Of a DNA stretch of 42,191 nt, positions 15,082 through 42,002 are shown in pieces. The notes beneath the pieces are model-generated. The model saw only the letters and a program-made list of their open reading frames with translations. It did no database searches and was not told where the DNA came from. The DNA lies in assembly GCA_015231435.1 (NCBI GenBank), contig JADGBN010000012.1, forward strand, positions 1 through 42,191. Direction: 5' to 3'. Within the stretch, counting starts at the first letter, position 1; the number at the start of each line of letters is the position of its first letter. Made by a program: the position numbers and the translations under genes. This DNA comes from Gammaproteobacteria bacterium (GTDB lineage: Bacteria; Pseudomonadota; Gammaproteobacteria; Thiohalomonadales; Thiohalomonadaceae).

Positions 15082-15890
15082 TTGCGGCGCGTCTCTACAG
15101 CGCCCTGCGCAGCCAATATCGCCTCGGTCAATGCGACATTTTGCCGTAAATGGTCTGGATTAATCGTACCAACCACCAGCGATGCGACCGCCGGATGGGC
15201 AAATATCAGGCGCAGTGCCGCCTCAATGCCGCCACCACCTGCCGCCCGATCGGCATGACCACTCGCCAACCCCTTTTTAATGAGCACCCCTTTTCCCAAT
15301 CTGGCTGCGGCATCGAGTACCGGCAGCTCATCCTGATAATCGGGATGGTAACTGGCCATCACCAGATCCATATTCTCAACGCACCAGAGGCCGCCGGCAA
15401 CGCTCTTTGTCGACATTCCAACCGCCTTTACCTTACCCTCGGCTTTTAACTCGAGCAGCGTATCGCAAACCGCCTGCTCGCGAATAATCGCCATGTCGTT
15501 ACCATCGGAGTGCACCAGTACCACATCAAGCATATCACGACGCAGACGACGCAGACTCTCCTCAACCGATTGCCGCGTTGCCACCGCGCTAAAATCAAAA
15601 AAGGATTGCCCGTTAATAAACTGCTCTCCTACCTTGCCAATAATCACCCAGTCATGACGCTGCGGCAGCAGCTCTCCCAAACGGCGTTCACTCTCACCAT
15701 AAGCGGGAGCGGTATCCAGGGTGTTAATCCCCAGCTCCCAGGCAAGGTGCAATAGCGCCGTCACCGCCGCATCATCAGGAAGGTCAAAAGCCGTGGGATA
15801 CTTAACCTGCTGATTCCGACCGATTTTAACTGTACCTAACCCAAGCGGACTCATGCGCAGATCACTCTGGCCAACTCGCTGCTGTTTCAT
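15078..15890 (-). CDS. aldo/keto reductase
   Basis: INTLDTAPAYGESERRLGELL, IIGKVGE, DVVLVHSDG, KAVGMSTKS; start adjusted to ATG at 15890 (ATGA overlap with upstream gene). Confidence 0.88.
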   Translation of the reverse strand: MKQQRVGQSDLRMSPLGLGTVKIGRNQQVKYPTAFDLPDDAAVTALLHLAWELGINTLDTAPAYGESERRLGELLPQRHDWVIIGKVGEQFINGQSFFDFSAVATRQSVEESLRRLRRDMLDVVLVHSDGNDMAIIREQAVCDTLLELKAEGKVKAVGMSTKSVAGGLWCVENMDLVMASYHPDYQDELPVLDAAARLGKGVLIKKGLASGHADRAAGGGGIEAALRLIFAHPAVASLVVGTINPDHLRQNVALTEAILAAQGAVETRRK

Positions 15891-17122
15891 ATGACTCCTT
15901 CGTACCAAATTAAAGGTCGCTGCCACGGCAACGGCGAAACTACAGCCTTCGGCCAGCGTGCCAATATCGCTGCATTATTTATATTTTCGGCTTTGGCCAG
16001 ATCTGCTAGGGCGGCGACCACCCGATCGCCCAGTACCGGTAGTAGCGCCAATTTTGTCGGCCAGAGCGTCATTAACGCTGCGGCATGATCTTCATGAAGA
16101 TAACTGTCATCCGGACGCCCGCCTCCGGGCATCGCTACCTCGGCACGATTCACCGACAACGCGGCAAAACGTAACTGGTGCGACGCCAACCACGGTAGCA
16201 GTGTCGCTAACTCCTGCGCCGCCTGTCGGCACTGATCGGCATCACTACGACCAACCCCCTCCTCCGCCAGCTGCCCGCCCAGATACCAGAGCGGCCGCCC
16301 TTTCGCATCCTGATGCGTGGAGATGGTTAAGCGCGGTGTCGTCGCAACCCCAAGGCAGTGGGCATAAATGGTGGGTAACGCTAGGGCGGCATCAGGGCGT
16401 GGCTGCGCTACCACCATTTTCAACGGCCGCCGCTGCATCTGCGGCTGACGCTGCCCTAACTGGTGTAATAGATCTGCATTCCCCTCCCCCGCCGTCAGAA
16501 TGAGCTGGCGAACCTGTAGCGGTGGGAGATCGCCCTGCGCTATCTGCCACCCCGCCGCCGCTGCCAATGGTGTCATTAACGCCGCAGCGTCCAACCGTAA
16601 AATCTGATCTTCGTAAGGTGCTGTCAGCACCGCCAGCAGTGAAGCGATATCCAGCACCATCTCATTAAGGCGATAGAGCTCACCACGAAAATCGTGATGG
16701 CGAAAAAGAGGCGGATAAGCTTCGGGCTTGAGCGCGGTGGTACGACTGCGCATCAGACGACTGGCGAAAAAGCCCGCCATGCGTGAAGTGAGGGTCGTTG
16801 TTGACCAGAGCAGTTGATCCTGACTCAGCAGCTTCACCCCACGCAAATCGACCTCCCCATCTCCCTGCCCTTCCCCCTGCAGCGCCGCCTGCCAGCGTGC
16901 CGGCATCGCCGCAATGCGGGTCGCTGCCTCACCCAGCTCACCGGTCAGGGCAAATTTTGTCCCGCCGTGAATAATCCCCTGAGCAAACCCAGTCTGCCCC
17001 GCACCAATGGCGCTACGCTCCAGCAGCACCACACGGTAACCCAGCCGCTGCAGTCGCTGCAACAGCCACAAGCCACTAATACCCGCCCCGATAATCGCGA
17101 TATCGGCACTGTAATCACTCAT
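15887..17122 (-). CDS. FAD-dependent oxidoreductase (DAO family)
   Basis: Rossmann motif ADIAIIGAGISGLWLLQRLQRLGYRVVLLERSAIGAGQTGFAQGIIHGG; start likely MSDYSAD at 17122. Confidence 0.82.
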   Translation of the reverse strand: MSDYSADIAIIGAGISGLWLLQRLQRLGYRVVLLERSAIGAGQTGFAQGIIHGGTKFALTGELGEAATRIAAMPARWQAALQGEGQGDGEVDLRGVKLLSQDQLLWSTTTLTSRMAGFFASRLMRSRTTALKPEAYPPLFRHHDFRGELYRLNEMVLDIASLLAVLTAPYEDQILRLDAAALMTPLAAAAGWQIAQGDLPPLQVRQLILTAGEGNADLLHQLGQRQPQMQRRPLKMVVAQPRPDAALALPTIYAHCLGVATTPRLTISTHQDAKGRPLWYLGGQLAEEGVGRSDADQCRQAAQELATLLPWLASHQLRFAALSVNRAEVAMPGGGRPDDSYLHEDHAAALMTLWPTKLALLPVLGDRVVAALADLAKAENINNAAILARWPKAVVSPLPWQRPLIWYEGVI

Positions 17123-17162
17123 CATCACCACACCAGTCACCTTAATATGAGAAAAACACGCA

Positions 17163-17284
17163 ACCCTTTCTACTTGAAATTGCAGGGTCGTTGTCTGCAG
17201 TCGCTCACCCCAATCACATAGTTAATCTATGCTCATGGGGATTCGCGCCTTTGCCGCCTACCTGCATTTCCAAGTAGTTTGGGT
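17163..17284 (+). repeat. 122-bp dispersed imperfect palindromic element, copy A
   Basis: ACCCTTTCTACTTGAAATTGCAGG...CCTGCATTTCCAAGTAGTTTGGGT: about 24-bp terminal inverted repeats, internal hairpin CCCCAATCACATAGTTAATCTATGCTCATGGGG; matches the reverse complement of 36614-36735 at roughly 100 of 122 positions by manual alignment. Confidence 0.9.
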
Positions 17285-17450
17285 ATATTCGTCACGCCGC
17301 TATTATAGGCTCACTCCCATACTGCGGGCACACTTCAGTCTCTCCAAAACCAGCTTGCCTCTTGTTGAACCGCTCTGGCATAATCACGCGCAGCGGGTTA
17401 ACTCTATAATAACAACCGACCCTGTTCACTCTTCTCATTCGGATATCACC

Positions 17451-18221
17451 ATGGGCAACCGTCATTCGCTCTACCTGCGTTATCTGTTGCTTTCTCTGAC
17501 ACTCATCCCCTCTGCGACTGCAGCGGCCGAGACGCTTAAACTGGCGATTGCCAACTCTACTTGCGATATTTTTTCCCAAGTCAACCAGCGCTTTAGCGCC
17601 GCCCAGCCGATTCAACTGGAGTTAACCTGCAAGGCTTCAGGCCTGCTTGCCAAAGGGTTACAGGGCAAGGTGATTGATGCCGACCTCTTTATCTCGGCAA
17701 ACCAGGAGTGGATGGACTATATGATTAAAGAAAAACTGGTTAACCCGGAGGAGGTCACCACACCTTGGCGTAACCATCTGGTCGTCGCCACCGCCCGCAG
17801 CAGCGCACTAGCCATCGACCGCTGGGAAGATCTGGCCTCTCCTGCGGTGCAGGAAATTCTTATCGGCGACCCCTCCCTTGCTCCGTTTGGACGTTACGCG
17901 AAACAGGCACTACAGCGGACAGATCTCTGGCCACAGGTTATTCACAAAATTAGCAGCAGAAAAAATATCGCCATTCTTGCGGAAGATCTCAACACTGCAG
18001 GCGAGGGGAGCGTTGGCATTCTCTTTGGTAGCAACCTTACCCCGGGGCATCGGCTGCTCTTTCGTGTCAATCCCGACTGGCACGATGCGGTTCGCTACTA
18101 TATGGCACCCTTAGCTAACAGCACAAAGCGCGACACTGTCGCCAAGCTAATCTCTTTCTTAGCCAGCGATCCGATCACTGCCCTCTTTACTGAACATGGC
18201 TATATCTCGGGCCAACCCTGA
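17451..18221 (+). CDS. ModA-like (molybdate/tungstate-type) periplasmic substrate-binding protein
   Basis: Signal peptide MGNRHSLYLRYLLLSLTLIPSATAAAE; LKLAIANSTCDIFSQVNQRF, DADLFISANQEWMDYMIKEKLV, LVVATARSS, IGDPSLAPFGRYAKQAL resemble ModA. Confidence 0.72.
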   Translation: MGNRHSLYLRYLLLSLTLIPSATAAAETLKLAIANSTCDIFSQVNQRFSAAQPIQLELTCKASGLLAKGLQGKVIDADLFISANQEWMDYMIKEKLVNPEEVTTPWRNHLVVATARSSALAIDRWEDLASPAVQEILIGDPSLAPFGRYAKQALQRTDLWPQVIHKISSRKNIAILAEDLNTAGEGSVGILFGSNLTPGHRLLFRVNPDWHDAVRYYMAPLANSTKRDTVAKLISFLASDPITALFTEHGYISGQP

Positions 18222-27845: not shown

Positions 27846-28028
27846 AGTGGGTCTTCTCTGCGGTGTTCGCCAGCTGCCGGGTATTTTCTTGAGCCTGTTT
27901 TCTGCCCCGGGATGGTTAATTGGTTACTGTGTGCATGTCTGCTCGTCAGAAAGCCTAATGTTACCAATCTCAATCCCACTTGAACCACTGGGTTCAAGAA
28001 CAAAGGACGCAGCGGCACCGTGGTAAGG
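27846..28028 (+). ncRNA. ssrS: 6S RNA (approximate ends)
   Basis: Between zapA and fau; conserved CTTGAACCACTGGGTTCAAG hairpin; 5' CTGCGGTGTTCGCC and 3' AGCGGCACCGTGG can form a closing stem like E. coli 6S. Confidence 0.87.
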
Positions 28029-28661
28029 CCCACCCTCTTCTCCTCTTTAACCGAGAGCGCCACGATCGCTGCCGAGCGACGCAGGATTCGTAAAGAGATA
28101 AGAGTAATGCGCCGCAATCTTGACCAACGGCTGCATCGACAGCAGTCACAGGCAATCTGCCGCCACCTTAGCAAACTCCCAATGCTGCTTAAGAGCCAGC
28201 ATATCGCCCTCTACCTCAGTAATGATGGCGAAGTTAACCTCTACCCACTACTCACCTATCTAACCGACATTGGCAAAAACTGTTATCTCCCCTGCCTCGC
28301 CCCGCATCGGCAGCGGCGCCTCTGGTTTGCCCCCTACCGTCCGGGAGATCGCCTCACCCCAAACCGCTTCGCTATTCCCGAACCTCGGGTCAGCGTCAGA
28401 GCAATGCGCACGGCACAGCGAGTTGATCTCATCCTCATGCCGCTGGTCGCTTTTGATCAACTTGGCAACCGACTCGGCATGGGGGGAGGCTATTACGACC
28501 GCAGCCTCGCCTTTTTACAGCAGCGCCAACACTGGCGACGACCGCGCCTAATGGGTACCGCCTTTGAGCTGCAGCGCCTGCCGCTACTGCCCGTCGCAAA
28601 ATGGGATATTCCGATGCACGCCCTCTGTACCGAGCGGGGCGTTTTGCAGTTTCACAAATGA
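28020..28661 (+). CDS. fau: 5-formyltetrahydrofolate cyclo-ligase
   Basis: RRIRKEIRVMRRNL first helix, RVDLILMPLVAFDQLGNRLGMGGGYYDRSL signature; start uncertain (GTG 28020 or ATG 28107). Confidence 0.88.
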   Translation: MVRPTLFSSLTESATIAAERRRIRKEIRVMRRNLDQRLHRQQSQAICRHLSKLPMLLKSQHIALYLSNDGEVNLYPLLTYLTDIGKNCYLPCLAPHRQRRLWFAPYRPGDRLTPNRFAIPEPRVSVRAMRTAQRVDLILMPLVAFDQLGNRLGMGGGYYDRSLAFLQQRQHWRRPRLMGTAFELQRLPLLPVAKWDIPMHALCTERGVLQFHK

Positions 28662-32163: not shown

Positions 32164-33855
32164 ATGGCAATTAGTGGTTTGGGACGCAAGCTGGTTAATG
32201 ATGGCCTGCTTAGTCGTGATGACGCAGAGAGGCTCTTTGAAGAGTGTCAAAAAGAGGGTGTCCATTTTGTCTCGCGCCTAATTAGCAGCAAACTGATTAC
32301 CGCCAGTAAACTTGCCGATGTCGCCTCTGCCGAATTTGGTCTGCCTCTGCTTGACCTAAACGCGATTAATATCGATCTTGATACCGTCAAGCTGGTTGAC
32401 GACAAACTCCTTAGCAAACATCACGTTCTACCTCTCTTCAAGCGGGGCTCACGCATCTTTATTGCGGTCTCTGACCCAACCAACCTAATCGGCATTGATG
32501 CCATCAAATTCCATGTTGGGCTGACCGTTGAGCCGGTGGTGGTTGAAGAAGATAAATTATTACAAATGCTGGTGAAAGTTGCAGAAGATCTAGACACCTC
32601 GATGGGTGATCTCGCAGGTGATGAGTCACTTGATGATCTTGATGTTGCGGCAGTTGATGATGATAAAACGGCTGATGACGATAGTGCCATCGACGATGCC
32701 CCGGTGGTGCGTTACATTAATAAAATGTTGCTTGACGCGATTAAGGCTGGGGTCTCCGACCTTCACTTTGAGCCCTACGAAAAACGCTATCGTGTCCGTT
32801 TTCGCCTCGATGGCATGTTAAAGGAGGTCTCCTCCCCCCCTGTTGCCCTGGCAGGAAAGCTCTCCGCCCGTTTTAAGGTAATGGCGCGTCTGGATATTGC
32901 CGAACGCCGTGTGCCACAGGATGGCCGGATTAAACTTACCCTATCGAAAACTAAATCTATCGACTTTCGTGTTAATACCTGCCCGACACTATTTGGCGAG
33001 AAGATTGTCCTGCGTATTCTTGACTCCGATAGCGCCAAACTTGGCATCGATATGCTTGGCTACGAGCCGGAACAGAAACAGCTCTACCTCGATAACCTCG
33101 AAAAACCCTACGGCATGATTCTGGTGACCGGCCCTACCGGTAGTGGTAAAACCGTCTCACTCTACACCGGTCTGAATATTCTCAATACCGAAGATCGCAA
33201 TATCTCCACCGCTGAAGATCCGGTAGAGATTAACCTTGAGGGTATCAATCAGGTTAACGTTAACGACAAAGTCGGCCTTACCTTTGCCGCCGCACTAAAA
33301 GCTTTCCTGCGCCAAGATCCTGACGTGATTATGGTCGGCGAGATTCGTGATATCACCACCGCCGAAATTGCCATTAAAGCCGCACAAACAGGCCACATGG
33401 TGCTCTCTACCCTACACACCAACGATGCGCCGCAAACTCTGTCGCGGCTGATTAACATTGGGGTTGCCCCCTTTAATATCGCCTCCGCCGTTAATCTAAT
33501 TATTGCCCAACGTCTTGCACGCCGCCTTTGCAAGCACTGTAAAACACTCGACGATCTACCGGAAAAAGTTCTACTAAAGGCTGGCTATAGCGCCGCCGAG
33601 ATCCCCACCCTGAAAATTTACAAGGCGGTCGGTTGTGATCAGTGTAACGAAGGGTATAAAGGACGCGTGGGGATCTATCAGGTGATGCCGATTTCAGAAC
33701 AGATGGGGCGTCTGATTATGGAGGAGCGAACAGCCATAGATCTCGCTGATCAGGCACGCAAGGAGGGGATTCCCGATCTGCGCCAGTCTGCCCTTAAAAA
33801 GGTTAAGGATGGCCTGACCAGCCTTGCCGAAGCCAATCGTGTCACCCTTGAATAG
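32164..33855 (+). CDS. pilB: type IV pilus assembly ATPase PilB
   Basis: GMILVTGPTGSGKTVSLYTGLNILN Walker A, AEDPVEINLEGINQVNVN, RQDPDVIMVGEIRD, tetracysteine CKHC...CDQC. Confidence 0.96.
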   Translation: MAISGLGRKLVNDGLLSRDDAERLFEECQKEGVHFVSRLISSKLITASKLADVASAEFGLPLLDLNAINIDLDTVKLVDDKLLSKHHVLPLFKRGSRIFIAVSDPTNLIGIDAIKFHVGLTVEPVVVEEDKLLQMLVKVAEDLDTSMGDLAGDESLDDLDVAAVDDDKTADDDSAIDDAPVVRYINKMLLDAIKAGVSDLHFEPYEKRYRVRFRLDGMLKEVSSPPVALAGKLSARFKVMARLDIAERRVPQDGRIKLTLSKTKSIDFRVNTCPTLFGEKIVLRILDSDSAKLGIDMLGYEPEQKQLYLDNLEKPYGMILVTGPTGSGKTVSLYTGLNILNTEDRNISTAEDPVEINLEGINQVNVNDKVGLTFAAALKAFLRQDPDVIMVGEIRDITTAEIAIKAAQTGHMVLSTLHTNDAPQTLSRLINIGVAPFNIASAVNLIIAQRLARRLCKHCKTLDDLPEKVLLKAGYSAAEIPTLKIYKAVGCDQCNEGYKGRVGIYQVMPISEQMGRLIMEERTAIDLADQARKEGIPDLRQSALKKVKDGLTSLAEANRVTLE

Positions 33856-33875
33856 CAATCGGAGACCTCTCTTTT

Positions 33876-35117
33876 ATGGCAACATCTGAAAAAAAACTGA
33901 TCGCTGAAAATGGCGGTAAATTTCTTTATGAAGGTATTGATAGTAAAGGAAAAAGAGTTGATGGCGTCATTAATGGCATCAGCGTCTCCAAAGTAAAAGC
34001 TGATCTGCGTAAACGTGGCATTAACCCGATAAAAGTTAAAAAAAAGGCGAAGCCCCTATTTAGCAGCGGCAAGAAGGGGGGGAAAATTACCCCAAAAGAT
34101 ATCACCATCTTCTCGCGCCAGTTGGCGGTCATGATGTCCTCCGGTGTGCCCCTGGTGCAATCCTTTGAGATTGTTGGCAAGGGTTTGGAAAACCAGACCA
34201 TGGCTGAACTCGTCTTAACCGTAAAGACCGATATCGAAGGCGGCGGCACCATGGCTGACGCCTTTCGCAAGCACCCCAAGGTTTTTGACGAACTGATGTG
34301 TAACCTTATCGAAGCGGGTGAGCAGGGGGGTATTCTGGAAAGTATGCTGGCCAAAATTGCCGAATACAAAGAGAAAACAGAGAGCATTAAAGCCAAGGTA
34401 AAAAAGGCGATGACCTACCCTATCGCCGTTATTACCGTTGCACTGGTGATTACCGCCGGTCTGCTGATCTTTGTTATCCCCTCGTTCCAGAAGATCTTCG
34501 AAGATTTTGGTGCCGAACTTCCGGGGTTAACGATGATGGTTATTCACGCCTCGGAGATGCTGCAATCCTACTGGTACATCGTCATTGCCATTGGCGTCGC
34601 GATTGGCTACAGCTTCAAAACGATGATGGAGAAGTCACCGCCCTTTCGCCTTGCGGTTGAGCGTTACTCCCTCAATATACCGATTTTTGGCGAAATTAAA
34701 CAGAAGTCTGCCTTCGCCCGCTTTGCCCGTACCCTCTCAACCATGTTTGCTGCGGGGGTGCCGCTAGTCGAGGCGTTAGAATCAGTCGCCGGTGCGGTTG
34801 GCAACGTCTACTACAAAGGCAAAATTCTTGAAATGCGGGATCAGGTCGCCATGGGTGGCTCGGTGACCACTGCGATGATTGATGCCAATATTTTCCCCAA
34901 CATGGTGGTGCAGATGACCTCTATCGGTGAAGAGGCCGGTTCGCTTGACTCCATGCTCGCTAAAGTTGCCGACTTCTACGAAGAGGAGGTGGATAACCTC
35001 GTGGATACCCTTAGCAGTCTAATGGAGCCGATGATTATGGTGGTACTTGGCTCCATCGTCGGTACGATTATTATGGCGATGTATCTTCCCATCTTCAAAA
35101 TGGGCGAGGTGGTCTAA
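33876..35117 (+). CDS. pilC: type IV pilus inner membrane platform protein PilC
   Basis: ITIFSRQLAVMMSSGVPLVQSFEIVGKG, FARTLSTMFAAGVPLVEALESVAGAVGN, duplicated T2SSF domains. Confidence 0.96.
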   Translation: MATSEKKLIAENGGKFLYEGIDSKGKRVDGVINGISVSKVKADLRKRGINPIKVKKKAKPLFSSGKKGGKITPKDITIFSRQLAVMMSSGVPLVQSFEIVGKGLENQTMAELVLTVKTDIEGGGTMADAFRKHPKVFDELMCNLIEAGEQGGILESMLAKIAEYKEKTESIKAKVKKAMTYPIAVITVALVITAGLLIFVIPSFQKIFEDFGAELPGLTMMVIHASEMLQSYWYIVIAIGVAIGYSFKTMMEKSPPFRLAVERYSLNIPIFGEIKQKSAFARFARTLSTMFAAGVPLVEALESVAGAVGNVYYKGKILEMRDQVAMGGSVTTAMIDANIFPNMVVQMTSIGEEAGSLDSMLAKVADFYEEEVDNLVDTLSSLMEPMIMVVLGSIVGTIIMAMYLPIFKMGEVV

Positions 35118-35129
35118 CCCTCACCACCG

Positions 35130-36017
35130 ATGAGCACGTTACAATCGCTGCAACTGCTTGCAGAGCTTAACCCTGCGCTACTGGTGATTACCACCACTAT
35201 TCTCGGTCTGGTGGTCGGCAGTTTTCTTAATGTGGTCATTCATCGTCTGCCCCTGATGATGCAGCAGGGCTGGCAGCAGGAGTGCCACGAGCTGCTCCAC
35301 CCTGAAGCCGCAGAACCCCCTGCCACTGCTGCGCCACTTACCCTCTACCATCCCCCCTCCCACTGCCCGCAGTGCAAAAGCGAAATCCGCCCTCTGCAGA
35401 ATATCCCCTTGGTCAGCTTTCTTCTGCAAAGGGGGCGCTGCCGCTCCTGTGGTGCAGCAATATCCTGGCGTTATCCCTTGGTAGAACTACTAAGCGCCCT
35501 GTTATCTGGCATCGTGACTCTCCACTTTGGTGCGACAGCGGCACTCTTTCCTGCCCTGCTACTCACCTGGATACTGCTTGCACTCACCTTTATTGATCTT
35601 CAAACCCAGCTTTTGCCCGATAGCATCACCCTGCCCGGGATCTGGCTTGGGCTCTTGTTAGCGCTATTTCATATCTTTACCGATCCTGCGACCGCGATTA
35701 TTGGTGCGGCAGCAGGCTATCTCAGCTTCTGGAGTGTCTATCAACTCTTTAAGATCATCACCGGTAAAGAGGGGATGGGCTATGGTGACTTTAAACTGTT
35801 AGCACTGCTGGGCGCTTGGTTTGGCTGGCAACTACTACCGCTAATTATTATGCTCTCGGCAATGCTGGGAACCCTCATCGGCATAACCCTCATTATCACC
35901 CGCGGACACGACAGACAGATCCCCATCCCTTTTGGCCCCTACCTCGCCATCGCCGGCTGGGTGGCGATGCTCTGGGGAGAGTCCCTCACCGCTACCTATC
36001 TTAAAATCATTGTCTAA
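35130..36017 (+). CDS. pilD: prepilin peptidase PilD
   Basis: VVGSFLNVVIHRLPLMM, two CxxC pairs (CPQC, CRSC), LTFIDLQTQLLPDSITLPG, GYGDFKLLALLGAWFG aspartate motifs. Confidence 0.95.
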   Translation: MSTLQSLQLLAELNPALLVITTTILGLVVGSFLNVVIHRLPLMMQQGWQQECHELLHPEAAEPPATAAPLTLYHPPSHCPQCKSEIRPLQNIPLVSFLLQRGRCRSCGAAISWRYPLVELLSALLSGIVTLHFGATAALFPALLLTWILLALTFIDLQTQLLPDSITLPGIWLGLLLALFHIFTDPATAIIGAAAGYLSFWSVYQLFKIITGKEGMGYGDFKLLALLGAWFGWQLLPLIIMLSAMLGTLIGITLIITRGHDRQIPIPFGPYLAIAGWVAMLWGESLTATYLKIIV

Positions 36018-36684
36018 AGGGCGTCCCCTGCGCATCGGGCTCACCGGTGGTTACGCCTGCGGTAAAAGCAGTGCAACCGCCATCTTTATTCAACTTGGCG
36101 TCCCCTGCATAGATGCAGATCAGGTTGCGCGAGAGATCGTTGCCCCGCATACCCCCGCACTTACCGCGTTAATCAAGCTATTTGGAACCACCATTATCAC
36201 TAGCGATGGCGAGTTACAACGCGAAAAGTTGCGCCAAATTGTCTTTAATAATCCGCTGCAGCGGCAACAATTAGAAGCCGTTACCCACCCCTACATTCGT
36301 CAGGCGATTCAACATTGGGTCAAGCAGCAGCAAGGCCCTTATCTTATTATCGCCGCCCCTCTACTACTGGAGGCGGGCTGGCAGAACGAGGTTGATCACA
36401 TTCTGCTTATCGACCTGCCTGAAGCAGAACAACTCACCCGAGCCATGGTACGGGAACAGCGCACGGCGGAAGAGATTCAGCAGGTGATAAACAGCCAATT
36501 CCCACGCTGGCAACGCTGCGCAGCAGCAAACACCATTATTGACAATAGTGGCGACCTTGCGACGCTCGAAAAAAGCATTAACGCCTTTCACCAACATCTA
36601 CAACAGTCGCTCTACCCAAACTACTTAGAAATGCAGGTAGGCGGCAAGGTTGCGAATCCCCATGGACAAAGCTACTCTAAATAA
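36010..36684 (+). CDS. coaE: dephospho-CoA kinase, likely TTG start overlapping the pilD stop
   Basis: LRIGLTGGYACGKSSATAIF P-loop, CIDADQVAREIV, AAPLLLEAGW; follows pilBCD. The last 23 codons lie almost entirely inside repeat copy B. Confidence 0.9.
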   Translation: MSKGRPLRIGLTGGYACGKSSATAIFIQLGVPCIDADQVAREIVAPHTPALTALIKLFGTTIITSDGELQREKLRQIVFNNPLQRQQLEAVTHPYIRQAIQHWVKQQQGPYLIIAAPLLLEAGWQNEVDHILLIDLPEAEQLTRAMVREQRTAEEIQQVINSQFPRWQRCAAANTIIDNSGDLATLEKSINAFHQHLQQSLYPNYLEMQVGGKVANPHGQSYSK

Positions 36685-36735
36685 TTGGGGTGAAGGACTG
36701 TAGCCAATGACCCCGCAGTTTCAAGTAGAAAGGGT
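36614..36735 (-). repeat. 122-bp dispersed imperfect palindromic element, copy B (inverted relative to copy A)
   Basis: ACCCAAACTACTTAGAAATGCAGGTAGGCGGCAAGG...GCAGTTTCAAGTAGAAAGGGT; reverse complement aligns without gaps over 122 bp to 17163-17284. Confidence 0.9.
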
Positions 36736-36844
36736 ATATAATCAAAAGGTGCGTTCATACAGTCCGCCACTCCTGTTCACGGCAACTGGAGGAGTGGTTC
36801 TGTTAGCAAAAATAGAACAATCAACCAACCTGTTGGAGAAAAAG

Positions 36845-37300
36845 ATGACCGATAGTGTAAAGAAGGCGGCATTTCACCCTTTTCATACCCTCCTTACAGT
36901 CTGTTTTCTGACAGCTACCCCCCCCATTTTTGCCGAGGTGTTTAAATGTGAAGACGCAGGGGGGGATATCTTTTACACATCAACGCCAGCAAGCCACGAT
37001 CAGTGCCAACCCTTAAAAATCAGTCACACGCCAGCGACGGCAACAACCACCTCGAACGGCGTTAAACCCGCTGAAAAAAAACCGGTTAATAATCAAGAGG
37101 GCGAGCCTCAGACACTTGATGCGATTGGCGAGCTCTATCAACGCAACTGCCAATCAGCAAAATTTAACAAAAAGATTTACGAGTCAGCAGCCCCGCTAAC
37201 CGCTGCCAATGGTCAAACCTACACCCCCTCAGAGGAGGAGCGTAGCAATAAAATTGCCGAAGCGGATCGGCAAATTAAAACCTACTGCAGCGCACCTTGA
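36845..37300 (+). CDS. DUF4124-like secreted protein
   Basis: Signal peptide then AEVFKCEDAGGDIFYTSTPASHDQCQPLKI; start at ATG 36845. Confidence 0.65.
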   Translation: MTDSVKKAAFHPFHTLLTVCFLTATPPIFAEVFKCEDAGGDIFYTSTPASHDQCQPLKISHTPATATTTSNGVKPAEKKPVNNQEGEPQTLDAIGELYQRNCQSAKFNKKIYESAAPLTAANGQTYTPSEEERSNKIAEADRQIKTYCSAP

Positions 37301-37333
37301 TAAAAAGATAGGGGGCGATCTATCGCCAGCATA
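37300..37333 (-). terminator. possible intrinsic terminator overlapping the pilE stop codon
   Basis: Minus-strand read CTGGCGATAGATCGCCCCCTATCTTTTTATC: short hairpin GGCGA-TAGA-TCGCC, then a T run after a gap. Confidence 0.4.
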
Positions 37334-37796
37334 AATCCCAGGTCATTCCCGCTGCGCCAATGACCACCTTACGCCCCAAATGGGTAATTTCCAAAGCGCC
37401 ACAAACATCACCTGCCTGGATGCCTATAGGCGTGGCGCGCAGTGAGTAGGTCACAGCGGTCACACCCTGAATCGTTAAATTATAGTAAGCGGCTCCTCCA
37501 TCAAGCGGTACCGTTCCCGGAAATATCGATGGCGTTCCCGTATCGTTTGTTCCGGCAGCCCCACAACTATTAGCGCCCCCAGCACCGCCGGCATCACAGT
37601 AACTACTGAAATTATTGGTTGCATAGCGCACCATGGCATTAGAAAAGCCGGAGAGCGCCGCAGCAGCATCAGCCCGTCTTGCGGTCATCATATGGCTGGT
37701 ATAGGCCGGATAGGCAACCGAGACGAGAATGCCCGCAATTGCCAGTACAACCATTAGCTCCAACAAAGAGAAACCCAGTAACGAACGCTTATTCAT
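37320..37796 (-). CDS. pilE: type IV pilin PilE
   Basis: MNKRSLLGFSLLELMVVLAIAGILVSVAYPAYTSHMMTARRADA: class III prepilin signal and N-terminal helix. Confidence 0.92.
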   Translation of the reverse strand: MNKRSLLGFSLLELMVVLAIAGILVSVAYPAYTSHMMTARRADAAAALSGFSNAMVRYATNNFSSYCDAGGAGGANSCGAAGTNDTGTPSIFPGTVPLDGGAAYYNLTIQGVTAVTYSLRATPIGIQAGDVCGALEITHLGRKVVIGAAGMTWDLCWR

Positions 37797-37823
37797 AAAA
37801 CCTCTCCACAACTTATCCTTATT

Positions 37824-37858
37824 AAAAAAAACAGGGTTCGGAGATGATCCGAACCCTG
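37824..37858 (-). terminator. intrinsic terminator between pilY1 and pilE
   Basis: Minus strand CAGGGTTCGG-ATCATCT-CCGAACCCTG, perfect 10-bp stem with 7-nt loop followed by TTTTTTTT. Confidence 0.92.
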
Positions 37859-37883
37859 ATAACTATCCTCACTCAATAAACGG

Positions 37884-40800
37884 CTACGGACGCACAAGCT
37901 GCCAGGAGGTGCGGGTGACCGCATTAGGCGGGGTCATTTCGGCAATCTTTTCAGGGCCGACCATCACCACTGGATTTGCCGTTCCTGGCGGAATAATCAC
38001 CACCGGCTCCGGCGGGATCCCACCCTTTTGCAGATTCACATAACGTTTACCCCTAATAGTCGTCTCATCCTCTTGAGTAGTTGGATCATCCGGCGGGGTA
38101 CCGGTTAGCAGATCAATTTGATAAAACTTAGCCGTCCCAACATCAGGGGCACAAATATTAAGCTGTGCCTGTGAGGGCTGGAAGGTGCTAAACATCAATT
38201 TACTATCAAACACCACCGCATTTGCCAACAGTTTTTCACCTGCCCAACTGCCATCAGCCTCTACATTCAACTTCATATACCAACCAGCCTTGGAGTTAAG
38301 CAGCGACTTTGCCGCCGTCAGGGTCGCCCCTGTTGCCGAACCCAGGATATTGCTGGTGGCATCAAATAGATCACCGCTGACATAGCTTGTACTGGTGAGA
38401 CTGCCACTGGTTAGTTTAATGAAATCATACGCTGCAGCACCATAAAATTGCAGGTAGTCTGGAAAGAGATCGGCATCGCCATCTGGTCCCGTACTATCGA
38501 CATAGAGGTTAACGCTATTGCTGTACATCGACTCAATCGGTTTGGGATCGGCAATGACAAACATCGCATCCTGAATCGTGGTATTTAACGGATGCGCACG
38601 ATAACCAGAGCCTATCGCAAGATAGAACTTGCTGGCTGCATAGGCCACTGCCGGTGGGTAGTAGAAACGACGATTATCCGCCGCAGCAGTTCCCGCTAAA
38701 TCAGCAATAATGCCGCCCCTTGCCAGCGTTGCCGCCCCGGTATTCTCATTATTGATATCAAAACGCCAGAGACGTCCCCCCATATCACCAAAATAGAGAC
38801 GGTCATCATAACCATCACGATTTGAATCAATCACCATGAGATCTGAGGGGATGCTGTAGAGCATATCGGCCTGAACCAAATCAGGGTCAGCCCCCGCAAC
38901 GTTACCACTACCCGCGGGGCCTGCCTGCCAGAGTTTTGCGCCGGTTTCAGCATCAACGATATAGATGGCACGACCCATGGTGTCCGCAGTTCTCACCGAA
39001 ACATTATCCTGCTGCGGATCATAACCACCGCCAAAAATAAGGACATCCTTATCGACACCATTTATTTTGATGGTTGCCGCAATCGCCTTTGACCAGGTCT
39101 GCCCCAACTCACTAAAGTCACCCTGCCCCCCGAGAATCTGCCAGGCATATTTCGGCGCACTCTCATCAGTGACATCAAGCGCGTAGTAATTACGCCCACC
39201 ACGACGCATCGCTGCGTAGATATAGAGCTTTTCATTGCTATCCAGATCAAAGCCGGTGTACAGCAGACCGTTATGATTGTCATCCTTATGCCAGCGCGAG
39301 ATTGGCCCATCGAGTCCGTAGGGGTGCGGCTCATTAATATCATTAACATAGATTTTATCGAGATTAGGCAGTAGTTGCGGGGGAATGAAAGAGAAGACCT
39401 CATGACCATCATCAGGGTCAACCGCATGCAGATAACCCTCATTGGTGCCCACATAGAGCATTAACTTCATATCATCAGCGGTACCGCCATAATTAACCAG
39501 CAGTGGCACACTATGCAGCGGATCCCCCATATGGGTACGCGCATCGGTGGTTGACCCATCAATATCCTCATCCTTAAGGTCAATCCCGCTTGACCACTGC
39601 AGCAGTTGACTACGATAGGCATCGCTCATCGCCGCATTACCCAGCATTATTTTGGTGATGGCGGTATTGGTATCGGTCACCCGATGCGTCCCTTGGGTTA
39701 ACAGGACATTATTGGGTGCACTCGCGCCCGTATAGGTGTAGACGTTACGGTTAGCGCCCAAATTCTCGGCCGCGCCGCCGCTGTTAACCGCGCCACCATC
39801 AACCCCCGAAGACCACCAGCTTTGTGCAGTCTCCTTAAAAAATCCGGTGTCGGGGTCTACAGCAGCTGCATCATTCACATCAACCACCTGGTTATTCAGC
39901 AGTTTATAACGTTTGACATTCCCGCTCCATTGTGGACGCTCATCCACCTTAAACAGCGCATAATAGAGCTGCTCGAGATGTGAAAAACGGTTAAAGGCGT
40001 TTACGGAAATAGAGGGTGAGACAAAACTGGTTGAGGTGCTCAAAATCTGCTGAAAGATCTGCTGAAACGCCAGCAACAGCCCATCATAATCATCCGCATA
40101 GAAGAAGCCGGGCGTCCCGTCGCTCTTGGTCCCGGTTGCTGCCGCAGTTAGAAGATTAACATTACCACCGGCAAAGCCAATGGTATATGTCAGTACCTTT
40201 TGTGTCCCCTCCAACGTGGCGTTCATGTCGGAATTTGCCATATACTTGGAGAGATCATCAAGGCAGTTATTACCATAACTATCGTTACAGTTGGCTTGCC
40301 CCACTGCGGTACTAAAGTTAGGCAGACTGGTAATCGAAGTATTAGAACCCCCATCACCGACGGGATCACCATCGGTTAAAAAGACGTTGAAATTCGACTG
40401 GCAGGTGTACTCAATCGGACTTTGATACTTACTCGTATTGGCCGGATCACGCGTCCCGGTCGCCGGTGCCCCGGCAATGCCTGCCGCCGTGGTCACACTG
40501 GTGCCACCGGGGCTGCCATCCCCCCAGTAAACAGTCCCACCCGACCAGAAGAGATAGCTCTCATAGAGCGACTCCGATAGCGGCGTATAGCCAAGATAGG
40601 TATAGATACCCTCCTCGTCGGCATCATAACCATCACCCACCAGCGCCTGGTAGGTAGGGCGATTGGTATTGGTCAGCTCCGCCATCGGCGCAATAAAGTA
40701 GGCGCCATCATCTCGGTCAGACATCCCCGAACCGTTATTGTCAAAGCGCATAAGCGCGATATTCACCCCCGAGAGCTGGTCGAGAAGATCTTCAAATACA

Positions 40801-42002
40801 CGCTGAACAACCGTAAGACGGGTTACCGTTTCGGTGGTTCCGGCATTGGCAGGGTTATTGTAATAGGCAAGATAGTTCCCGGTATAGAAGGTATAAACCG
40901 CACCCGCAGCACCAGCACCTGTCCAGCTAATCGCATTGCTCGAATCGGCACGCCAGGGGCCTTCATAGTTCTCGTTGGCAGGATAGAGCTTGCCGGTATC
41001 AACACCATCACCATGCACACCATTATCCGCCTCACACTCAACCGCTGTAACATTACTGCTGCCGCTGGCAATGGTACTCCAGACGTCAATATTACTGGTG
41101 GTACAGACCGGATCAACCGTACAAGTGGTCATTCCGGTTACCGTGCCACCGCCACAGCTCCCCCCTATCGGCGTAGCGGCACAGGCAATACTATTGGTCT
41201 CATTACAAGCGACACCACTACTGTAAACATACTTATTTTTATCATCAAAGCTATTGTAATCATAACAGTCACTAAGGCACTGCGACTGCCACCACGACTG
41301 ACTCTCTCCAGAGCCCGAACTTACCAGCGTACAATCACGCAAATCGGTATTCGAATTTTTAGGTACATCCTGACATTTACGATAGTTACCCAGTACCCCG
41401 TAATAGTCTTTCTTGCCCCTCTGCCAGTAACAATCCATTTTACAGGCGGTTTTGGCCGGATCTGAGAGCGTATTACAATTGTTATTACTAACACCGCTAC
41501 AATTTTTGGTGGTATAGCCGCCGCCAGTACAGATCTCCAGCACCGCGCAGGCAGCCTCACTCGCCTCGGTACACGATTCAACCGTTCCCCCATTCACGGT
41601 CCAGGATGCCGCACGCATACCGCTTGCCTGTCCGGCGGAGGTAAATGCAGCTCCCGACAACACAGAACACTTGTTTGCCGTTGTCGTAAATTTATTATTA
41701 CTGCTGCAACTGGGCACGCTCCCATCTGTGGACCAGTAGATGGCGCTGGTGTCACAGGTACTGTAACTGTATGCCGTCGCAGGGTTATAGGGTACCGGAT
41801 CGTGAGTGATGGTGACCGAGTTGGTATCCATCGACCCCGAGGTGTCAATAATGAAGTTAATGTTAGGGCGAACGAGCGCCCCAATGCTGGTGCCGGAACC
41901 ATAGATTTCCGTGTCATCCGCCAGCAGGGTTACCGGCGTTATCACCAGCAGATAATAGAAAAGATACAGGTGACTGCGAAGTAGGGATGTAATCTGTTTC
42001 AT
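37884..42002 (-). CDS. pilY1: PilY1-type pilus tip-associated protein (vWA + beta-propeller)
   Basis: MIDAS NFIIDTSGSMDTNS; GDPLHSVPLLVNYGG, LYVGTNEGYLHAVDPDDGHEVFSFIPPQLLPNL, Ca-binding-like DSNRDGYDDRLYFGDMGGRLWRFD. Confidence 0.93.
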   Translation of the reverse strand: MKQITSLLRSHLYLFYYLLVITPVTLLADDTEIYGSGTSIGALVRPNINFIIDTSGSMDTNSVTITHDPVPYNPATAYSYSTCDTSAIYWSTDGSVPSCSSNNKFTTTANKCSVLSGAAFTSAGQASGMRAASWTVNGGTVESCTEASEAACAVLEICTGGGYTTKNCSGVSNNNCNTLSDPAKTACKMDCYWQRGKKDYYGVLGNYRKCQDVPKNSNTDLRDCTLVSSGSGESQSWWQSQCLSDCYDYNSFDDKNKYVYSSGVACNETNSIACAATPIGGSCGGGTVTGMTTCTVDPVCTTSNIDVWSTIASGSSNVTAVECEADNGVHGDGVDTGKLYPANENYEGPWRADSSNAISWTGAGAAGAVYTFYTGNYLAYYNNPANAGTTETVTRLTVVQRVFEDLLDQLSGVNIALMRFDNNGSGMSDRDDGAYFIAPMAELTNTNRPTYQALVGDGYDADEEGIYTYLGYTPLSESLYESYLFWSGGTVYWGDGSPGGTSVTTAAGIAGAPATGTRDPANTSKYQSPIEYTCQSNFNVFLTDGDPVGDGGSNTSITSLPNFSTAVGQANCNDSYGNNCLDDLSKYMANSDMNATLEGTQKVLTYTIGFAGGNVNLLTAAATGTKSDGTPGFFYADDYDGLLLAFQQIFQQILSTSTSFVSPSISVNAFNRFSHLEQLYYALFKVDERPQWSGNVKRYKLLNNQVVDVNDAAAVDPDTGFFKETAQSWWSSGVDGGAVNSGGAAENLGANRNVYTYTGASAPNNVLLTQGTHRVTDTNTAITKIMLGNAAMSDAYRSQLLQWSSGIDLKDEDIDGSTTDARTHMGDPLHSVPLLVNYGGTADDMKLMLYVGTNEGYLHAVDPDDGHEVFSFIPPQLLPNLDKIYVNDINEPHPYGLDGPISRWHKDDNHNGLLYTGFDLDSNEKLYIYAAMRRGGRNYYALDVTDESAPKYAWQILGGQGDFSELGQTWSKAIAATIKINGVDKDVLIFGGGYDPQQDNVSVRTADTMGRAIYIVDAETGAKLWQAGPAGSGNVAGADPDLVQADMLYSIPSDLMVIDSNRDGYDDRLYFGDMGGRLWRFDINNENTGAATLARGGIIADLAGTAAADNRRFYYPPAVAYAASKFYLAIGSGYRAHPLNTTIQDAMFVIADPKPIESMYSNSVNLYVDSTGPDGDADLFPDYLQFYGAAAYDFIKLTSGSLTSTSYVSGDLFDATSNILGSATGATLTAAKSLLNSKAGWYMKLNVEADGSWAGEKLLANAVVFDSKLMFSTFQPSQAQLNICAPDVGTAKFYQIDLLTGTPPDDPTTQEDETTIRGKRYVNLQKGGIPPEPVVIIPPGTANPVVMVGPEKIAEMTPPNAVTRTSWQLVRP

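Follow-up and report, generated by a model that had tools for sequence, protein, structure and literature searches.

What is the 122-bp repeat that lies twice in a stretch of 42,191 nucleotides from a gammaproteobacterial genome (hereafter the window), and how did it arrive there? The segments 17163–17284 (+) and 36614–36735 (−) align without gaps and are identical at 101 of 122 positions (82.8%), in agreement with the value of about 83% that an earlier note had estimated by eye. No other place in the window is more than half identical to copy A over 122 bases. The nested palindrome that the note had read from the letters, with its ACCC and CTACTTG.AA.TGC.GG arms around CCCCA-n4-CATAG-TTAAT-CTATG-n4-TGGGG, is exact. 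Its description of the conservation was also correct: the arms of the two copies are identical at 22/24 and 23/24 positions and the CCCCA/TGGGGATTCG core at all positions, versus 12/22 for the inner stem. The actual element ends slightly outside the noted segment, as TACCC...GGGTA, usually within TA...TA. Copy A kept the outer TA on the right and lost it on the left; copy B keeps it at its left end (high coordinates) and has GA in place of TA at the other. Copy A has a folding energy of −44.1 kcal/mol on the plus strand and −50.5 on the minus strand (z = −4.9 and −7.1), which no shuffled sequence equaled, and copy B folds less strongly (z = −1.7 and −2.3). The coordinates are collected in Table 1.

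Table 1. Coordinates of the two repeats, their neighboring genes and the IS630 element.
Feature	Position	Strand	Evidence
FAD-dependent oxidoreductase (DAO) gene, 5′ end ~20 bp from copy A	15887–17140	−	
Copy A, assigned to ERIC; short form of the L1R1 subfamily (ACCCTTTCTACTTG...CAAGTAGTTTGGGTA)	17163–17285	+	sequence comparison, folding, covariance model
Left terminal inverted repeat of copy A, ACCCTTTCTACTTGAAATTGCAGG	17163–17186	+	
Inner palindrome (ERIC core) of copy A	17208–17241	+	
Right terminal inverted repeat of copy A, ACCCAAACTACTTGGAAATGCAGG on the − strand	17261–17284	−	
ModA-like/SBP_bac_11 substrate-binding protein	17452–18221	+	
coaE, dephospho-CoA kinase (CoaE domain, residues 35–209 of the ORF)	35932–36684	+	
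3′ end of coaE from copy B: 23 codons and stop codon	36613–36684	+	
Copy B, assigned to ERIC; more diverged, apparently older	36613–36736	−	sequence comparison, folding, covariance model
Single-copy IS630-family element, TATACCC ends	L052:950–2050 (G000 C212, about 50 kb)		

ERIC, a very small hitch-hiking DNA element well known from gut bacteria and vibrios, is most familiar as a PCR-typing target in enteric bacteria. We take its core, the target of the ERIC1R/ERIC2 typing primers, to be 17208–17241 in copy A. We know of no demonstration so far of what moves ERIC. Judged by sequence comparison, the repeat of the window is ERIC (also IRU, RU-1 or MITEEc1), an already classified MITE of 124–127 bp. 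The similarity is of full length, including both ends and the central core, and the imperfect palindrome keeps the conserved helices. The nearest matches found were on Vibrio plasmids, with 83–84% identity over 124 bp. In E. coli, 5395 of 5426 genomes contain full-length matches to the query, and the best places among the matches listed are 75–81% identical and unannotated. Copy A and the RU-1 consensus of PMC2759123 align over their entire lengths (95 of 129 columns). The suspicion of the note that the repeat may already be catalogued was thus well founded; the match to a classified MITE refutes the novelty of the element but not its reading as a MITE. At the gathering threshold, Rfam has no family for the element, the sole match in the window being a 6S RNA at 27852–28030 (RF00013, 90.8 bits), and a promoter and terminator scan around copy A found nothing within the element.

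The repeat shares with the ERICs of Enterobacteriaceae its length of 124–127 bp, the TATACCC...GGGTATA ends, the nested palindrome, the CTCACCCCA/TGGGGATTC core, the terminal TA and the intergenic placement (PMC2229807, PMC2759123). It differs from them in its sequence identity of only about 75%, in its two local end subfamilies and in a host beyond the usual range, and its inner loop has one base more than that of most aligned Enterobacteriaceae copies. With the ERIC or RU-1f-like repeats of Vibrio it has CACCCCAATCACATAG...CTATGCTCATGGGGA and CAAGT.GTTTGGGTA in common; however, in a comparison with two inspected Vibrio copies, a TTTCC-type right arm and a form with a 21-bp insert were seen only in host copies.

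The host genome is a metagenome-assembled genome (MAG) whose 223 contigs total 2.87 Mb, with 94% completeness and 0.9% contamination. BLAST found 40 near-identical copies in it. A covariance model built from 17 ERICs, with which 150 candidates were scored, found at least 139 copies, a lower bound, and these are distributed across roughly a hundred contigs. Therefore, the earlier count of two holds for the window but understates the genome. The anatomy of the copies was studied in contig stretches of about 1.5 Mb, overlaps included, which contain 112 full-length copies. Sixty-five of the 112 are 124 bp long, and about 40 are 132–146 bp long, mostly because a 21-bp insert (approximately CACCAAAGGCAGGCTGCGCAC) is present within the region of the left end. 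Outside TACCC/GGGTA, 89 of 95 left flanks and 80 of 95 right flanks carry TA, as expected for ERIC and its TA target duplication, and the base composition past this TA is nearly flat after three positions. Predicted ORFs wholly enclose only 2 of 113 copies, compared with 74% of random placements. The median identity of 96–98% to the subfamily consensus indicates a recent spread. The terminal inverted repeats, the TA duplication, the high copy number, the intergenic bias and a transposase with matching ends in the same genome bear out the MITE-like nature that had been proposed.

Two end subfamilies are present in this sample, L1R1 (TTTCTACTTG...CAAGTAGTTT, 53 copies) and L2R2 (GTCATCCTTG...AATGATTTT, 52 copies), with 6 mosaic copies of mixed ends. 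The left and right end types are almost perfectly linked (Fisher p = 3e-24), and the end type is not associated with the 21-bp insert (p = 0.31); because the copies share ancestry, these p-values describe association and not independent events. The interior, with or without the insert, is common to both subfamilies. Two subfamilies whose two ends changed together are new here. Four pairs of ERICs lie less than 60 bp apart (L203, L206, L165 and L121), three of them separated by 1–2 bp, which suggests insertion into the TA that ends an older copy. A one-ended type-1 terminus (L032:9827) was considered as the end of a larger ERIC-bounded element and rejected, because the terminus belongs to a truncated ERIC next to an ordinary gene; the host sequence examined yielded no larger element bounded by ERIC on both sides.

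A transposase search covering DDE_3 proteins returned one such protein in the host genome. It belongs to the IS630-family element of Table 1, which is bounded by TATACCCCAGATCTATGAAAATGCTTGATT and, inverted, TATACCCAATCAACTTGAAAATGCTGGATT, and has a TA target. The transposase is intact (344 aa), contains HTH and DDE_3 domains, and has the catalytic triad D170-D251-E286, a DD34E arrangement. Beyond the TA, the right end of the element (TATACCCAATCAACTTGAAAATGCTGG) matches ERIC R1 at 21 of 25 positions and ERIC ends overall at 17–21 of 25. An intact DD34E transposase with a right end resembling those of ERIC in the same genome is thereby established, as is expected for a MITE of the IS630/Tc1-mariner type. 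The sampled sequence contains 170 sites that match the right end at 17 or more of 23 positions; 161 of them (about 95%) lie in detected ERICs and one is the IS itself, and several of the remaining 8 resemble degraded ERIC ends by eye. On one side, the element is neighbored by the end of an MmeI_C-type gene, and on the other by an ORF that resembles a REP-associated tyrosine transposase by eye, with no Pfam match at 1e-5.

The most likely account, drawn from sequence comparison, is that the MITE was acquired horizontally and that an IS630 transposase amplified it. An IS630/Tc1-mariner transposase would recognize ends of the TACCC-n6-CTTGAAAATGC type and insert ERIC at TA, acting in trans. The transposase of the L052 element, or a lost or unassembled relative, may have moved the ERICs. 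The element would have arrived by horizontal transfer and then amplified, most copies presumably persisting as neutral intergenic insertions. Copy B turned into the C-terminal tail of CoaE. That both copies in the window are ERICs, that is, 124-bp non-autonomous MITEs with imperfect terminal inverted repeats and TA duplication, for which an IS630/Tc1-mariner transposase acting in trans is the best-supported mover, is in our judgment very probable.

Two observations count against the assembled IS630 element as the mover: its left end resembles ERIC ends more poorly (15–19 of 25), and it is present in one assembled copy. Another transposase, from a different IS630 lineage or an unassembled multi-copy element, may instead have driven the spread, the single IS630 being incidental and the element still ERIC. 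This is a substantial minority possibility, as the two end subfamilies may need more than one transposase and a MAG of 223 contigs tends to lose multi-copy elements; however, the assembly contains only one DDE_3 gene, and sites like its right end are nearly all ERIC ends. The two end types over a shared interior would also fit ERIC ends that track two different IS630 transposases, with interiors exchanged between the subfamilies by recombination. We regard the tracking as a tentative suggestion, and the exchange of interiors as equally speculative. If the ends do track two transposases, the co-evolution of MITE ends and transposase would be directly testable with one present-day transposase.

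Relatives of the transposase occur in Legionella, Thiohalomonas, a Taylorina symbiont and Photorhabdus khanii, mostly with TATACCC ends. The Legionella and Thiohalomonas genomes with such relatives contain no BLAST-detectable ERICs; therefore, the transposase alone does not imply ERIC. The symbiont of Taylorina sp. (JAHXIV01; L074/L078) carries a repeat of about 150 bp with ERIC-like ends (TATACCCAAACAACTTGAAAATGCAGG...) and no ERIC core, which seems to be a different MITE using the same kind of ends. Thiohalomonas sp. L138_T1 (L067, L068) has a near-perfect palindrome of about 49 bp (TATACCCATGACCTATGAAAATGCTTGATTTTCATAGGTCATGGGTATA) that resembles two inverted IS630 left ends.

Across species, 11 of the 28 consensus pairs of the palindrome are changed on both sides; none of 500 shuffles reached this number, and slid controls gave 0–3. 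These compensatory changes are as well established as the family identity, the copy number and the TA flanks. In a MITE, they show that the arms stay matched and do not imply that RNA is the working form. The strong fold and the covariation across species could also suit a structured RNA or regulatory element (a cis-acting RNA, an RNase processing site or a protein-binding site) kept for its function and not mobile, and ERIC is reported to affect mRNA stability in Yersinia (PMC2229807). However, compensatory change would also be expected if a transposase requires both termini or if it is the palindrome as such that is preserved, and the TA flanks, the near-identical dispersed copies, the absence from family relatives and the insertion in coaE fit mobility and not a conserved regulon. 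We consider such a selected element unlikely. For the mobile element preferred here, an effect of copy A or B on transcript stability is a possibility.

Copy A lies where it had been placed before, between the divergently oriented DAO and ModA-like genes. A longer ModA-like ORF (17229–18221) begins within copy A; therefore, a start near 17452 is preferred. Copy B is more diverged, which suggests an older insertion. The coaE ORF, whose true start is probably downstream of the given TTG, continues from the CoaE domain into copy B, so that residues 228–250 (YPNYLEMQVGGKVANPHGQSYSK) and the stop codon are derived from the element. The CoaE proteins of relatives, including one of the same genus, lack this tail. 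An exact empty site for copy B was not found in the same-genus genome, although its coaE ends without the ERIC tail, because the gene downstream of coaE differs there. Delihas described genes fused to RU-1 at their 3′ ends (PMC2759123); that copy B supplies the final 23 codons and the stop codon of coaE is new here. Type IV pilus genes surround coaE (32164–42002; pilB, pilC, prepilin peptidase, a ComP-like pilin and a PilY1-like protein). A window gene of 1289 aa is a hybrid histidine kinase, and it was rejected as unsuitable for use as a marker.

The known range of ERIC is Enterobacteriaceae and Vibrionaceae (PMC10969869); this range describes where the family has been observed and does not define it. 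The covariance model detects no ERIC in the other 19 genomes of the family to which the host belongs, including the same-genus one. The transposase is likewise absent from these 19 genomes, save for a relative of 35% identity in one of them (G009), and the host's is the only one of the 20 family genomes to combine transposase with ERIC. In a class-wide draw of 369 genomes, 7 had a covariance match at E ≤ 1e-4, including the host. One of them (G338) is a clear carrier, and some others contain ERIC-ended elements in which the core differs or is shortened. The match L235 was rejected because its appearance is not ERIC-like; this match and those with a variant core were not counted as clear ERICs. 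The elements of G134 (L231, L238, L242) and G380 (L232), genomes of 1.7–1.8 Mb, have ERIC-like ends with a different or rearranged core and are possible ERIC variants.

A search of the assembly for 16S found none. The CoaE of the host clusters with those of its own family and shares 36% identity with that of Photorhabdus, while the CoaE proteins of G338 and Photorhabdus group together. Based on the absence of ERIC across the family and on this comparison, one modestly resolved CoaE tree, the host does not look like Enterobacterales or Vibrionales and is probably outside the described range. It is very improbable that the ERIC contigs are enterobacterial or Vibrio DNA binned into the MAG, which its fragmentation and the lack of ERIC in other family genomes might suggest, because the copies lie on roughly a hundred contigs, among them the 42-kb window, where coaE most resembles the genes of family relatives, the contamination estimate is 0.9%, and the subfamilies are distinct in sequence from Enterobacterales and Vibrio copies. 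The simplest account would be that the host acquired ERIC from another lineage and that it then amplified. Heavy amplification of ERIC in a lineage unlike Enterobacterales or Vibrionaceae is new here.

The link between ERIC and IS630 is itself not new, as the Photorhabdus ERIC (MITEPlu5) was already linked to CCC-type IS630 elements (PMC6267812). Photorhabdus luminescens likewise has in one genome a high-copy ERIC-type MITE that targets TA and IS630 elements whose CCC-type ends resemble those of the MITE (ISPlu3, ISPlu8 and ISPlu19), with hundreds of MITEPlu5 copies and several IS630 elements versus about 140 copies and one assembled IS630 in the host (PMC6267812). The RUP of Streptococcus pneumoniae, a 107-bp MITE at TA with inferred trans-mobilization by IS630-Spn1, works alike (PMC2229807); it belongs to another family than ERIC, in a gram-positive host, and no sequence relation is claimed.

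The repeat is therefore an already classified MITE of an ordinary kind; what was not expected is its host, whose genome also contains a plausible mover. A recent ERIC burst together with a single intact end-matching IS630 in a second, unrelated genome supports the IS630 origin proposed for Photorhabdus, and the host offers a simpler system than Photorhabdus for testing ERIC mobilization. These findings suggest that ERIC moves between gammaproteobacterial lineages; therefore, ERIC-like matches in metagenomes are not proof of enterobacterial DNA.
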